DNA of 64,000 nt from Anaeromyxobacter soli. Lineage in GTDB: Bacteria; Myxococcota; Myxococcia; Myxococcales; Anaeromyxobacteraceae. The position numbers and the translations under genes were made by a program. This document shows, one piece after another, positions 1-47,040 of this stretch (positions are counted from its first letter, which is position 1; every line of letters begins with the position of its first letter). The notes beneath the pieces were generated by a model. That model was not told where the DNA came from. It was given only the letters and a program-made list of their open reading frames with translations, and ran no database searches. The stretch lies in contig NZ_JAKZLF010000012.1 in assembly GCF_022808855.1 (NCBI RefSeq), positions 1-64,000 of the forward strand. Reading direction: 5' to 3'.

Positions 1-89
1 TCCCGATTATGCCGACTCCGAACCGCACGAATCGCACGCCGACGCGGGGTTCCGGTGGGCGCTCCGCATAATGCGAAGGTCCGCATAAC
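1..89. mobile_element. Edge of a foreign insert interrupting radC
   Basis: The radC reading frame (minus strand) matches the family up to HNHPSG, ending at 90. The sequence from 89 to the window edge no longer encodes the expected RadC C-terminus, although the frame stays open. It carries repeated TCCGCATAA motifs, as expected for recombinase sites at an element end. Tn554-type elements with several tyrosine recombinases are known to use radC as a target, so this is probably the end of such an element lying left of the window. No recombinase gene is visible here, so the element's identity is inference. Confidence 0.5.
63..88. repeat. Two direct copies of TCCGCATAA at the radC junction
   Basis: TCCGCATAA occurs at 63-71 and again at 80-88, with start points 17 bp apart. 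An 11-bp palindrome (CGCATAATGCG, 65-75) overlaps the first copy. The pair abuts the point where radC homology stops, so it may form recombinase binding sites of the inserted element. A weaker related string (ATTATGCC) lies at 7-14. Confidence 0.6.
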
Positions 90-629
90 GCCGCTCGGGT
101 GATTGTGCACGAACACGATCCCGTGAGCGCCCTCCCGCACCGCCGGCCGGAGCGCGTCGCGCGGGGACACCGGGCACTGCGCGAGCGAGCCCTCCGCGAC
201 CTGGACCGCGCGCAGGAGCCGGCCGCGCACGTCGAGCAGGACCACGTGGAACCCCTCCCGCTCGGCGTGCGCCGCGTGGCGAAGGAGCTCCGCGACGCGG
301 CGGGGATCGAGGCAGCGCTCCCCGCGCCGGGGCGGCGCCCACGCGGCGCGTCGGCCGAGCTCGAACGCGGCGGCGAGGGCGGCGGCGCGGGCGAGGCCGA
401 CGCCCGGCGCGCTGGCGATCGCGTCCGGGGGCGCCCAGGCGAGCTCGGCGAGCGGCACCGCCTCTACGAGCGCGAGCGCCGCGGCGCGGGCGGAGTGCCG
501 CGAGGTGCCGCCGCCGAGGAGGAGCGCGACGAGGTCGGCGTCGGAGAGCGCGCGCGGACCGTCGGCGAGTAGCCGGTCGCGAGGGCGATCTTGGCTCGGA
601 ACGAGCGCGTCGGAGGCGAGGGACGGCAT
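90..629 (-). pseudogene. radC: RadC (UPF0758, JAB/MPN-type) DNA repair protein, 3' end replaced
   Basis: From the ATG at 629 the frame gives about 180 residues of RadC. The N-terminal helix-hairpin-helix part includes RDRLLADGPRALSDADLVAL and a following LLLGGG. The JAB/MPN metalloprotease-like domain runs to GIVFVHNHPSG, the two His of the HxH metal motif. RadC proteins are usually about 225 residues and continue with a conserved stretch that supplies the JAMM Asp. Here the frame instead runs into unrelated sequence (VMRTFALCG...) with no stop before the window edge. The JAMM Asp is therefore missing and the protein is probably inactive. The break lies exactly at the conserved HNHPSG codons, which suggests site-specific insertion rather than decay. 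Confidence 0.8.
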
Positions 630-854
630 GCGCGCGCCCGGAGCAACCGACGTGCCGGCAGGTATCGCGCTCTGGAGTGACCGGACGTTCAGGGGGAGGG
701 GCGCGGCGCGGACGGAGCGTGCGGGAGGCGGCCTACCCTCCCGGACACGAGCGCTCGGGCTCGTGGACGCGAGGACCGGGGCGCCGTCACGTGCGGTCCG
801 GAGGGGTGCCTCGCCCGTCGAGCCGCGTCCGGCGGCCGGCGGCGGGCAGCGCGA

Positions 855-1490
855 TCAGTCCACCTTCGCCGGCGCAGGCTGCCGGGTCGCCTCCGCCGCC
901 TTCGCGCCCTCCGCCGGCTGCTTCACCAGCTCCGCGTCGATCTCGATCCGGATCTCGTCGCCGACGACGGGCGTCGCCTCGACCATCTTGTTCCACTCGA
1001 GGCCGAAGGCCTTGCGGCTCAGCTTCGTCGTCGCGCGGACGCCCCGGCGGTCCATCCCCATGGGATCCTTCATCGCGGGCGTGAGGTCGCTCACCTCGAG
1101 CACCACCGGCCTCGTCACGCCGTGCATCGTGAGGTCGCCCGTGACCTCGTAGACCTTGCCGGCCTTCCGGACCTTCGTGGACCTGAAGGTGATGCTCGGG
1201 TACTTCGCGACGTCGAGGAAGTCCGGCGAGCGCAGGTGGGCGTCCCGCTTGTCCTCCCGGGTGTTGATGGTGTTCGCGTCGATGGTGGCCTCGACGGAGG
1301 ACCTCGCCGGATCCTTCTCGTCGAGCTTCACGACGCCCGTCGTGCTCTGGAACTCGCCGCGCACGTTCGAGATCGCCAGGTGGCGCACGGTGAAGTTCGT
1401 CTGGGTGTGGGCGGGATCGACGTTCCAGGTCGTCGGCGCCGCGAAGGCGAGGGCCGGGACGAGCCCGAGGGCGAGGAGGACGTGCTTCAT
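855..1490 (-). CDS. YceI-family periplasmic lipid-binding-like protein
   Basis: This 211-residue protein starts at the ATG at 1490, preceded by GGAGCAG at good spacing. The N-terminus MKHVLLALGLVPALAFA is a signal peptide, so the product is exported. The mature part has the YceI lipocalin-like pattern: WNVDPAHTQTNFTVRHL, a central ATIDANTINTREDKRDAHLR, then FLDVAKYPSITFRS and LTMHGVTRPVVLEV. YceI proteins form a beta-barrel that binds isoprenoid-type lipids and are often linked to stress or polyisoprenoid transport. It has a short Ala/Pro-rich C-terminal tail. It stands alone, downstream of the outer-membrane-like gene on the same strand. Confidence 0.9.
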   Translation of the reverse strand: MKHVLLALGLVPALAFAAPTTWNVDPAHTQTNFTVRHLAISNVRGEFQSTTGVVKLDEKDPARSSVEATIDANTINTREDKRDAHLRSPDFLDVAKYPSITFRSTKVRKAGKVYEVTGDLTMHGVTRPVVLEVSDLTPAMKDPMGMDRRGVRATTKLSRKAFGLEWNKMVEATPVVGDEIRIEIDAELVKQPAEGAKAAEATRQPAPAKVD

Positions 1491-1594
1491 CGGCGCTGCT
1501 CCTTTGCGTTCATCGGCGAGATCGACCTCGCGTCGATGTAACGCCCCTCCCCTCCGGTTCAACCGCCATCGGCGGCCCGGTCGGGGACGACCGA

Positions 1595-2218
1595 CTAGAG
1601 CTTCACGCCGAGGCCGCCGGAGAGGCGCAGGAGCTGGTCCTGCTCGAATGACAGCTCGCCCGCGAGGAACATGGGCCCGAGGTCGAGGCGCAGCCCGAGC
1701 GCCACCTGAAACCAGACGCGCCAGTCGGACGGCCGTCCCGCTCCGGCACCGAACGTGAACGCCGCCTCGAGCCCGCGCCGCGTCTGGAAGCGATTCGTGA
1801 ACCGCAGGAGCGCGACGGGTGCCCAGTCCTGGCCGCCGTTCCGGATCTTGTAGGCGGAGCCCCACAGCCCGAGGTCGCCGAAGCCGAACGCGTAGGAGAC
1901 CTCGCCGCCGAACGCCGAGCCGGAGTGCTTGTCGCCGCTGCCGAGATCGAACGCCTCGCCGCCCCAGGCGGTGAGGAACAGGCGCGGCCCGCCCTCGTCG
2001 TCCTCGGCCCCGCCTTCCCACCCGTACTCGTCCTGGGCGCTCGTCCGCGCGAGGCCGAGGCGGCCGGGGGAGAGCGCCGAGGCGGCGCGGGAGGAGAGCG
2101 AGGACACGGCCGGGGCGAACGCGATCCCGGTGGAGGCCGGAGCCGGCGCCGGAACGGCCCCTTCACTGGCGGCGTCGGCAGCGGCGAGCGCGAGCGCGAG
2201 GGTCAGGGGAGCGAGCAC
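1595..2218 (-). CDS. Exported protein, probable outer-membrane beta-barrel
   Basis: The 207-residue product begins at a GTG at 2218 and has a short hydrophobic leader (LTLALALAAADA), so it is likely exported. After a low-complexity Ala/Pro/Ser linker, the last 130 residues alternate polar and aromatic residues with many Gly (FLTAWGGEAFDLGS, GGEVSYAFGFGDLGLWGS). It ends GGLGVKL, with the alternating pattern of outer-membrane strands. I do not recognise a specific family. No strong ribosome binding site precedes the GTG, so the start is uncertain. It lies upstream of the YceI-like gene on the same strand, about 100 bp away. Confidence 0.6.
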   Translation of the reverse strand: MLAPLTLALALAAADAASEGAVPAPAPASTGIAFAPAVSSLSSRAASALSPGRLGLARTSAQDEYGWEGGAEDDEGGPRLFLTAWGGEAFDLGSGDKHSGSAFGGEVSYAFGFGDLGLWGSAYKIRNGGQDWAPVALLRFTNRFQTRRGLEAAFTFGAGAGRPSDWRVWFQVALGLRLDLGPMFLAGELSFEQDQLLRLSGGLGVKL

Positions 2219-2272
2219 GCGAGGGCGATCATAGCCCCGCGCGGCGCCGGGGTTGCGTCCCGGGTGAGCCGT

Positions 2273-3372
2273 TCACCCTGCGGTGAGGAACCGCTCGTAG
2301 AGCTCGTACCCGCGCGCGAGGGCCTCGAGCTCCACCCACTCCCCGCGCTGGTGCGCCTGGCTCGTGGCCCCCGGCCCGAGGTTCGCCGCGGGGATGCCGT
2401 GGACCGCGAGGCGCGCCACGTCGGTCCAGGCCTGCTTGGGCTCCACGCCGATCCCGGTCCGCTCGAGGAGGCGACGCACGATCGGGTGCTCCGCGTAGGC
2501 GGGGCAGGCCGGCGACAGATCGGTCAGCTCGACCTCGGCGCCGTGGCGCCCGGCGAGCGCAGTGAGCTCTGCGGCGGCGGCGTCGAGCGTCTTGTCGGGG
2601 GCGAAGCGGAAGTTGAGGTTCAGCGTGCAGCGTTCGGGGACCACGTTGCGCGCGTGGCCGCCCTCGATGCGCGTCGCGGAGAGCACCTCCCGGAACACGA
2701 GGCCGCCGCTCGTGGCCTCGCGCGGCGCGCGCCCGTGGAGCTCGGCGAGGAGCGCCCCCGCGCGGTGGACGGCGTTCTCGCCGTGCCAGGGGCGGGCCGA
2801 GTGCGCGGCGCGGCCGCGGAACGTGACGGTCGCGTGGATGGAGCCGACGCAGCCGAGCTGGAGCACGTTGTCGGTCGGCTCGAGGCAGAGCGCGAGGTCC
2901 ACCCCGCCGAGGAGGCCGGGCGCGCGCAGCACGTCCTCGAGCTCGTTCTCGAGGTACGGCCCCTCCTCGCGCGCGTAGAGCACGAGGACGAGGTCGCAGA
3001 AGCGCGCCAGGCGCGGGAGCCGCTCGGCGAGCTCCATCGTCACCGCGACGCCGCCCTTCATGTCGGAGGCGCCCGGCGCGACGAGGCGGCCGCCCTCCCG
3101 GCGCGGCGGGTGCCGGTCCTCGTCGTGCACCGGGACGGTGTCGAGGTGGCCGCAGAGCGCGACCGTGGGCCGCCCGGGGACGGCGTCGCCGTCCACCCGC
3201 ACGACGAGCGAGTCCTTCACCCGCTCGACGCGCGGGAAGCGCACCCGCGCCCAGGCCTCGATCGCGTCGCAGAGGGCGCGCTCGTGGCCGATGGGCGAGA
3301 ACATCCCGCACAGCGCGGCGGTGCGCTGGGCGAGCGACTCGACGGGAGCACCGCCGGGTGCGCCTTGGAGCG

Positions 3373-3376
<4 letters not shown>
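2273..3376 (-). CDS. dapE: Succinyl-diaminopimelate desuccinylase
   Basis: DapE hydrolyses N-succinyl-LL-diaminopimelate to LL-diaminopimelate and succinate, a late step of lysine and peptidoglycan precursor synthesis. The 367-residue M20 metallopeptidase-fold protein has the zinc motifs GHLDTVPVHDED and ASDMKGG, the catalytic pair in YAREEGPYLEN, EPTDNVLQLGCVGS, and a C-terminal His in SQAHQRGEW. The wording of these motifs resembles the actinobacterial-type DapE subgroup. The start is a GTG that overlaps the dapD stop in a GTGA junction, so it is translationally coupled as the last gene of a dapC-dapD-dapE operon. Confidence 0.93.
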
Positions 3377-4193
<817 letters not shown>

Positions 4194-45900: not shown

Positions 45901-47040
45901 CTACTCGCGAGGCGGCTTCGTGTCGGCGGACGTGGCTCCGCGGGTGCGGCGGCGTCGTGCCTCGTCCGGCCCCGCGTCGGCTAGTTCCAGTGCTGCACCG
46001 GCCTCAAGCCGCCGGATGACCTCCCGGGCGTCCGCCTCGTCGACGATGTTGTACCGGTCGAACGTGCTTCTGGTCGTGTGCCCGGTGACCTTCATCACCT
46101 CCGACTCGGACGAGCCGCGCCGGCGCGCGTTCGTGCTGAAGCTCCGGCGCGTGTCGTGGAGCCAGACGCCCTCGATTCCGAGCTGCTTGCACACCCGCTT
46201 GAAGACTCGGTACGGGTCATCCCAGGGCGCGCCCGTCTCGGGGTTCACGAACACGTACTCGCCTCCGAGCGGCATCGGGAGCGAGCGGATGGCGGCGACG
46301 ACGCGATCGGTAAGCGGCACGACACGCGCCCTCCCCGTCTTGGTGTCCTCTGGGCGGAGGCGGATCGTTTTGCGCTCTAGATCGAGCGCCGCGGTGCGGA
46401 GGAGCCGGAGCTCCGTCTTCCGCATGCCCGTGTCGTAGTACGCGAGGAACATGGGCCCGAGGTGCGGCCCGGCAGCCGCCGCGATCTGTGCGATCTCCGC
46501 TTCCGTTATGGTGCGCTGCCGGACGTTGCTCTCCTCGAGCATCGGCACGTGGGCGATCGGGCTGTGCGGGATCCTCTCGCACTCGACCGCGTACGAATAC
46601 ATGCGCTTGAGGAGCGCGACCTCGCGGTTCAGCGTCGAATGGGACGGGGCCTTGCCCCGACGAGTCTCCTCGCCGAGTCGGGCCTCGCGGTACTCCTCGA
46701 CGTCGACGCGGGTGAGCGTCATGACCTCGCGATTACCGAGGTGACGGAGGACGTGCTCGGCCCTACCGCGGTCGGAGTTGTAGGAGCTGTTGTCCCGGCG
46801 GGTGATGGGCTCGTACTGCTCCCAGAGGTCGCGCACGGTGAGCGACATCGTGCGGCGTCGCTCGAGATACGTGTTGTCGAAGATCTCCTGCAGCGTCTTC
46901 GCCTCGAGCGCCTTCGCCTGCTCCCTCGTCGGGATCTTCCGCTTCCTGAACCGGACCTCCTGCCCGTTCGGCAGCTTCGCGGTGAGGTCGACCATCCATG
47001 CGGTCTTGCCTCCTGGTGTCGTGTACTTCTCAACGCCCAT
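45901..47040 (-). CDS. Tyrosine-type site-specific integrase
   Basis: The 379-residue recombinase has an N-terminal arm-binding region (KYTTPGGKTAWMVDLTAKLP). A SAM-like core-binding domain follows, then the catalytic domain with R207 (TGMRKTELR), K234 (DTKTGRARV), H295-xx-R298 (HDTRRS), H321 (GHTTRS) and nucleophile Y330 (FDRYN). All catalytic residues are present. The location close to tRNA-Arg supports integration there. It is convergent with the helicase gene and follows the excisionase-like gene on the same strand with a 42-bp gap. Confidence 0.95.
   Translation of the reverse strand: MGVEKYTTPGGKTAWMVDLTAKLPNGQEVRFRKRKIPTREQAKALEAKTLQEIFDNTYLERRRTMSLTVRDLWEQYEPITRRDNSSYNSDRGRAEHVLRHLGNREVMTLTRVDVEEYREARLGEETRRGKAPSHSTLNREVALLKRMYSYAVECERIPHSPIAHVPMLEESNVRQRTITEAEIAQIAAAAGPHLGPMFLAYYDTGMRKTELRLLRTAALDLERKTIRLRPEDTKTGRARVVPLTDRVVAAIRSLPMPLGGEYVFVNPETGAPWDDPYRVFKRVCKQLGIEGVWLHDTRRSFSTNARRRGSSESEVMKVTGHTTRSTFDRYNIVDEADAREVIRRLEAGAALELADAGPDEARRRRTRGATSADTKPPRE

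Follow-up and report, generated by a model that had tools for sequence, protein, structure and literature searches.

A radC gene of Anaeromyxobacter soli interrupted by one of two RIT copies whose junctions fit a circle joint with two crossover sites

The radC gene at the left end of the DNA analysed here was very probably interrupted by an 8.3-kb RIT element, of which the genome has two copies, by way of a circle whose joint would offer two crossover sites. The window, i.e., the whole stretch of 64,000 nucleotides, is the first 64 kb of contig C4 (115,288 bp) in the A. soli genome (G000; 5.3 Mb, 80 contigs). An earlier note, made from the sequence alone, had described this radC as cut at its HNHPSG codons by foreign DNA; that observation is real, and concerns a RIT insertion part of whose history can be read. 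The features of the left end were as follows:

1..88, minus strand: RIT element end A, a terminal inverted repeat, equal to the start of C65 (by identity to C65)
63..71, plus strand: second TCCGCATAA repeat, 17 bp inward (two-repeat ends are common to other RITs)
81..88, minus strand: putative terminal recombinase half-site, TTATGCGG in radC sense (repeat common to both element ends)
89..94, minus strand: left-junction core of 6 bp, the crossover spacer, reading GCGGCG in radC sense (junction comparison)
95..629, minus strand: 5' part of the host gene radC1, ending in the HNHPSG codons (PF20582 and PF04002; uncut relatives)

The radC frame spans window positions 629 to 3 on the minus strand and matches PF20582 and PF04002, with the RadC-domain match ending at residue 182 (profile position 78 of 121), after which the frame continues as VMRTFALCG. 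This continuation was absent from all intact RadC loci inspected, and the uninterrupted radC1-type genes of the genus read HNHPSGDPSPS or HNHPSGDPTPS, so that the gene gives way after HNHPSG just as had been claimed. Bases 1-95 of the window are identical to the reverse complement of C65:1-95, and the repeats noticed earlier in the foreign part are the copies of TCCGCATAA at 63-71 and 80-88. Ten matches to this 9-mer were found in the 5.3-Mb genome, nine of them at element ends on C4, C25, C46, and C65, and no element end was seen at the tenth (C4:58782); the reversed 9-mer, used as a control, gave four matches. The terminal half-site at 81-88 is a candidate for recombinase binding. The core at 89-94 has the same bases as uncut radC1-type genes, and is overlapped by the last of the radC HNHPSG codons. 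A further tyrosine-recombinase domain lies elsewhere in the window (46039-46509, minus strand; PF00589, 71.4 bits).

Position 1 of the window coincides with the end of contig C4, and the missing radC half is therefore not found leftward in the window; the assembly is interrupted by the repeated element, which is why this half does not lie to the left on C4. The leftward extension proposed in the earlier note thus succeeded in part, the recombinase trio being found on C65 and radC 3' halves on C46 and C4, with none to the left on the same contig. A PF04002 search of the genome gave six matches: two 5' halves at the left ends of C4 and C25, two 3' halves at the right ends of C46 (24438-24575) and C4 (115038-115175), and two intact genes. 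The flanks of one cut gene, radC2, match a single locus of a relative, genome G008, at 99.8% over 2,198 bp (C4 right) and 99.4% over 2,304 bp (C25 left), and since the two matches abut in G008 with nothing between them, in a radC2 that is uncut, the empty site can be seen. The flanks of radC1 (C4 left and C46 right) match the two sides of an interrupted radC1 in the one-contig genome G005. The element occupies two radC paralogues in opposite orientations, copy 1 in radC1 (the window) and copy 2 in radC2. Pairing the left end of C4 with its own right end, as in a circular contig, was rejected, as the G005 and G008 matches assign these halves to different paralogues. The radC1 locus of G008, recognised by its neighbours, holds a deletion-shortened gene that still reads CACCCGA-GCGGCG-ATCC over the core, and an intact radC1-type gene lies about 7 kb away. 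The deletion (L052, 5746-6076) is internal, with its right end close to the 6-bp core, and may be the trace of a past insertion.

A survey at the level of the order gave RadC matches in 104 of 117 genomes. Where the 5' half was seen, radC was split at the same point by five insertions in four genomes of the family (G000 twice, G004, G005, and G047), a count that leaves out the partial matches in G008:C104, G038, G040:C28, and G112, and a second fragment in G005. Five insertions at one radC position bear out the suggestion of site-specific insertion. Uncut targets read CACCCGA-GCGGCG-A (radC1 type) and CACCCAA-GTTCCG-ACCC (radC2 of G008). All four junctions in G000 fall at contig ends, where an assembly error or chimera might be suspected, but the same insertion point, element ends, and module (described below) occur within contigs of G004, G005, and G047, which makes an artefact of this kind scarcely credible. 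The second 3' radC fragment of G005 (L050, 4571-4720) lies about 1.5 kb past the first 3' half, and suggests an older event at the same locus.

The element itself was found as contig C65 (8,281 bp), within which the PF04002 search places the two intact radC genes:

120-788, plus strand: radC-A
883-2175, plus strand: tyrosine recombinase 1 (PF00589)
2153-3103, plus strand: tyrosine recombinase 2 (PF00589)
3100-4125, plus strand: tyrosine recombinase 3 (PF00589, 107.8 bits)
minus strand: PPDK_N/PEP-utiliser protein
minus strand: TetR regulator
8174-7509, minus strand: radC-B

The first 95 bases of C65 are common to the left and right ends of C4, and its last 127 bases to the left end of C25 and the right end of C46, which is the pattern to be expected from short-read assembly of one element present twice. 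C65 is thus a collapsed repeat, and synteny is the basis for pairing the flanks across it. Including their radC genes, the two ends of C65 are imperfect inverted repeats of each other (78% over 782 bp), ends A and B aligning inward from the terminal GTTATGCGG. The ends have the two-repeat design of other RITs, with a doubled TTATGCG, and contain terminal inverted repeats in the range of about 28-34 bp that characterises RITs. The three recombinase genes are adjacent with short overlaps, and the catalytic residues R, HxxR, H, and Y appear to be present in all three translations when read by eye. By profile matches only, about 130 residues precede the PF02899 match of RitA and about 40 follow the PF00589 match of RitC. 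The PEP-utiliser protein scored far below the cut-offs for PEP synthase (241.6 against 883 bits) and rifamycin phosphotransferase (190.2 against 999 bits).

The recombinase trio and the doubled TTATGCG ends identify the C65 element as a RIT. The earlier note had thought of multi-recombinase elements of the Tn554 type; its multi-recombinase element and radC target were both found, but the type fits a RIT better. Relatives of Tn554 are linked to radC in the portions of the literature that were available, and a 6-bp footprint is common to that family, yet the third gene of C65 encodes a full tyrosine recombinase, the genes overlap as a trio, and the doubled TTATGCG-like end repeats are those of other RITs. 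On these grounds of gene organisation and end repeats, a Tn554-family transposon is very improbable.

The radC 3' junction of all five insertions carries a 20-bp module with inverted arms resembling TTATG/CATAA, flanked by an inner and an outer 6-bp spacer, while the 6 bp of the target are kept at the module-free junction. For copy 1, attL reads GCGGCG, the inner spacer CTCCAG, and the outer spacer CCGGCG; for copy 2, attL reads GTTCCG, as in the uncut gene of G008, the inner spacer CGCCGC, and the outer spacer CTGGAG. The inner spacer of copy 2 is the reverse complement of the attL of copy 1, and its outer spacer that of the inner spacer of copy 1, so that 12 of 12 bp fit; the modules of the two copies are also exact reverse complements of each other. 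The modules of G004 and G047 have the inverted arms and lack a full palindrome. An alternative division into a 4-bp core and a 22-bp module was rejected, as Sinorhizobium copies show 6 bp and 20 bp.

Because their spacers and modules match as reverse complements, both copies fit the joint of a single circle with two crossover sites. In the mechanism proposed, the recombinases would produce a circular form joined as [end B]-spacer-module-spacer-[end A], in which either spacer, with the TTATGCG/CGCATAA half-sites that flank it, constitutes a crossover site. The spacer chosen for crossover would set the orientation of the element, and in both cases the module would end up at the target's 3' side; the 6 bp native to the target would remain at the module-free junction, and the 6 bp of the circle would pass to the module junction. 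The junction sequences are consistent with copy 1 having entered via one site and copy 2 via the other, in the opposite orientation. To judge by these sequence comparisons the element may be mobile in its own right and, since the donor copy is still present, movement would be by copy-out or would follow replication.

Thin evidence favours the radC1 copy as the donor (parent) of the radC2 copy: descent of copy 2 from copy 1 accounts for all 12 spacer bases, whereas the reverse descent or a circle common to both leaves one base unexplained (CCGGCG against GCGGCG), a mismatch that a mutation could have produced. The copies might instead be the children of one circle, two insertions from outside, or products of homologous recombination, with copy 1 not the parent. 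A shared circle fits the spacers with that one mismatch, and in the rhizobial copy L131 the target arms at the two ends are of one kind, which a rearrangement would explain; however, an exchange inside the element would leave the local junctions unaltered. Parentage by copy 1 is preferred, and these other origins are less likely.

Rhizobial plasmids provided an independent test, in which identical RITs on Sinorhizobium plasmids proved to be arranged in the same way. RitB matches were found in 566 of 72,556 plasmid records, and 13 rhizobial copies were read, comprising 10 of the 40 records listed among 101 matches, two copies on pC of LMB1, and one from Bradyrhizobium. In 10 of the 13, the module lies exactly 6 bp outside one end and is absent at the other (on the ritA side in four and the ritC side in six), and the module-free end of each of these 10 faces a similar target arm; in the other three copies read the module was absent. 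The three LMB1 copies (two on pC, one on pB) are 100% identical over 3,398 bp and correspond to one joint entered in both orientations, with rules in which either the attL or the attR spacer is kept fitting alike. The two copies read in M270, on accessory plasmids A and B, are 99.2% identical and again correspond to one joint and both orientations, but here the fit is limited to the reading in which attR is kept (or both derive from the same circle). Wrong-rule controls, i.e., spacer rules without the reverse complement, gave no matching pairs. The ends of nine further RITs were inspected: a one-end module was present in five (L081, L082, L083, L085, and L086) and less clear in L099 and L100; it was not seen in L103, and L084 is cut by a contig end. 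A RIT on a Paraburkholderia plasmid (L098) is flanked by two genes present in inverted copies, one for a group II intron reverse transcriptase (a 1,397-bp exact inverted match) and one for an integrase.

Both radC genes carried by C65 are full-length and conserved. Ratios of dN/dS (Nei-Gojobori) were 0.056 between radC-A of C65 and its G005 counterpart, and 0.114 for radC-B, values that point to purifying selection, and no intact radC other than the element-borne genes was found in G000 or G005. Being selected and the sole intact radC found in the genome, they probably supply the function that the insertion destroys. All six element-borne copies have an extra residue in the HNHPS loop (HxH-x8-S-x2-D), as against 2 of 25 non-element loci of the family and none of the 30 best-scoring loci of the order, which were those taken for the order-level census. 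Family locus L147 fits two spacings and was counted as normal, and the census did not include the truncated G040:C28 gene, in which the extra residue is present. The HNHPS codons presumably encode the metal-binding loop of RadC, and the extra codon sits inside the 6-bp core, lengthening it to 9 bp. In a tree of 30 RadC sequences (of 35 loci chosen, five having had their frame missed by the filter), the element copies grouped, with support of 99/95, together with three genes from outside elements, and the extra residue is missing in two of these three. As the element copies share one supported clade, the six copies with the extra codon are not six independent events. In G040 (L194, 2046-2900, minus strand), the C-terminal half of a RadC with the extra HNHPS-loop residue follows, in frame, a protein that resembles SSB as judged by eye.

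The carriage of radC and the extra codon suggest a disrupt-and-rescue element with self-immunity, and an intact copy of the broken gene that is kept by selection, one mark of such elements, is found. More specifically, the clade may hit a site in a hard-to-change loop of radC, carry copies made immune by a 9-bp core, serve as the sole source of RadC, and take its orientation from the two-site joint; this full combination is advanced tentatively and is somewhat doubtful. There is an even chance that the element radC genes are ordinary cargo, unrelated to target choice, and that the extra codon is a clade signature only. Their clade includes three non-element genes, so that the codon may have had one origin, and it also occurs in two full-length non-element radC genes of the family and in the truncated gene fused to the SSB-like protein. 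On the other side, the codon falls in the 6-bp core, and each of the four different elements inserted in radC (C65, G004, G005, and G047) carries an intact radC despite differences in gene order and other cargo.

The G005 derivative keeps both radC genes and the ends, and no recombinases were found in it. The G047 element, about 21 kb, holds parts of a type I restriction-modification system and other nuclease-like genes; PD-(D/E)XK, HD, and DUF6791-ThiF proteins are also among its cargo (L192/L080), which resembles a defence island. A scan of genome contigs found two relatives, at 59% and 55%. At 15 other RitB places in 14 genomes (31-44% identity), no radC was present in the stretches fetched, many of which end at contig ends, so radC carriage was seen in the close clade only.

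From the spacers read in this genome and in the rhizobial copies it can be predicted exactly what the circle joint and its two crossover sites should look like and how the 6-bp cores should be inherited, and the movement of RITs thereby becomes testable. If the extra codon blocks insertion, the element would be a case in nature of a gene being disrupted and then replaced by a version proof against the same disruption.

Both this kind of element and its preference for radC have been described before. In the sections available of the papers concerned, RITs are described as inactivating radC in Cupriavidus metallidurans and Bordetella petrii (PMC2864759), a RIT is placed in the radC of Tn6054, and an inverted repeat with an overlapping palindrome is mentioned for RITs (Van Houdt 2012, PMC3414803); RitA is credited with two core-binding domains and RitC with an extra C-terminal helix (PMC8138268). 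The part seen of a 2023 table lists target specificity, empty site, and movement of RITs as not tested (PMC10214605). The two-site rule, and radC-carrying RITs with an extra target codon, were not found in the literature searched, on RITs, the rule itself, and radC in Anaeromyxobacter, although Ricker 2013 (Plasmid), cited for RITs, may describe the module.

Among related systems, the Tn554 family shares with C65 a radC target and a 6-bp footprint, according to the excerpts at hand, and the C65 insertions do lie in radC with a 6-bp core, but that family has two recombinases and TnpC where C65 has three recombinases. SE/GInt elements, as described in the passages available (PMC10214605, PMC5385486), are likewise multi-recombinase and follow the same 6-bp rule, in which the attB core stays at one junction and the core of the circle goes to the other. 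They have four genes, including a recombinase-fold protein (Tfp/GinC) without the catalytic motif, whereas all three C65 proteins keep their catalytic residues as read by eye, and no one-sided module is described for them in those passages. The closest likeness is to RIT elements (ritABC), for which the same partial sources (PMC3414803, PMC2864759) give an overlapping tyrosine-recombinase trio, inverted ends, a palindrome near the end, and as targets either radC, as here (CMGI-2 of CH34, GI3 of B. petrii), or IS66 tnpA. Unlike the RITs of about 3.5 kb known from them, C65 has two radC genes within 0.78-kb imperfect terminal inverted repeats, and adds TetR and PEP-utiliser genes. What appears new here is a RIT that carries radC, along with the proposed two-site joint.
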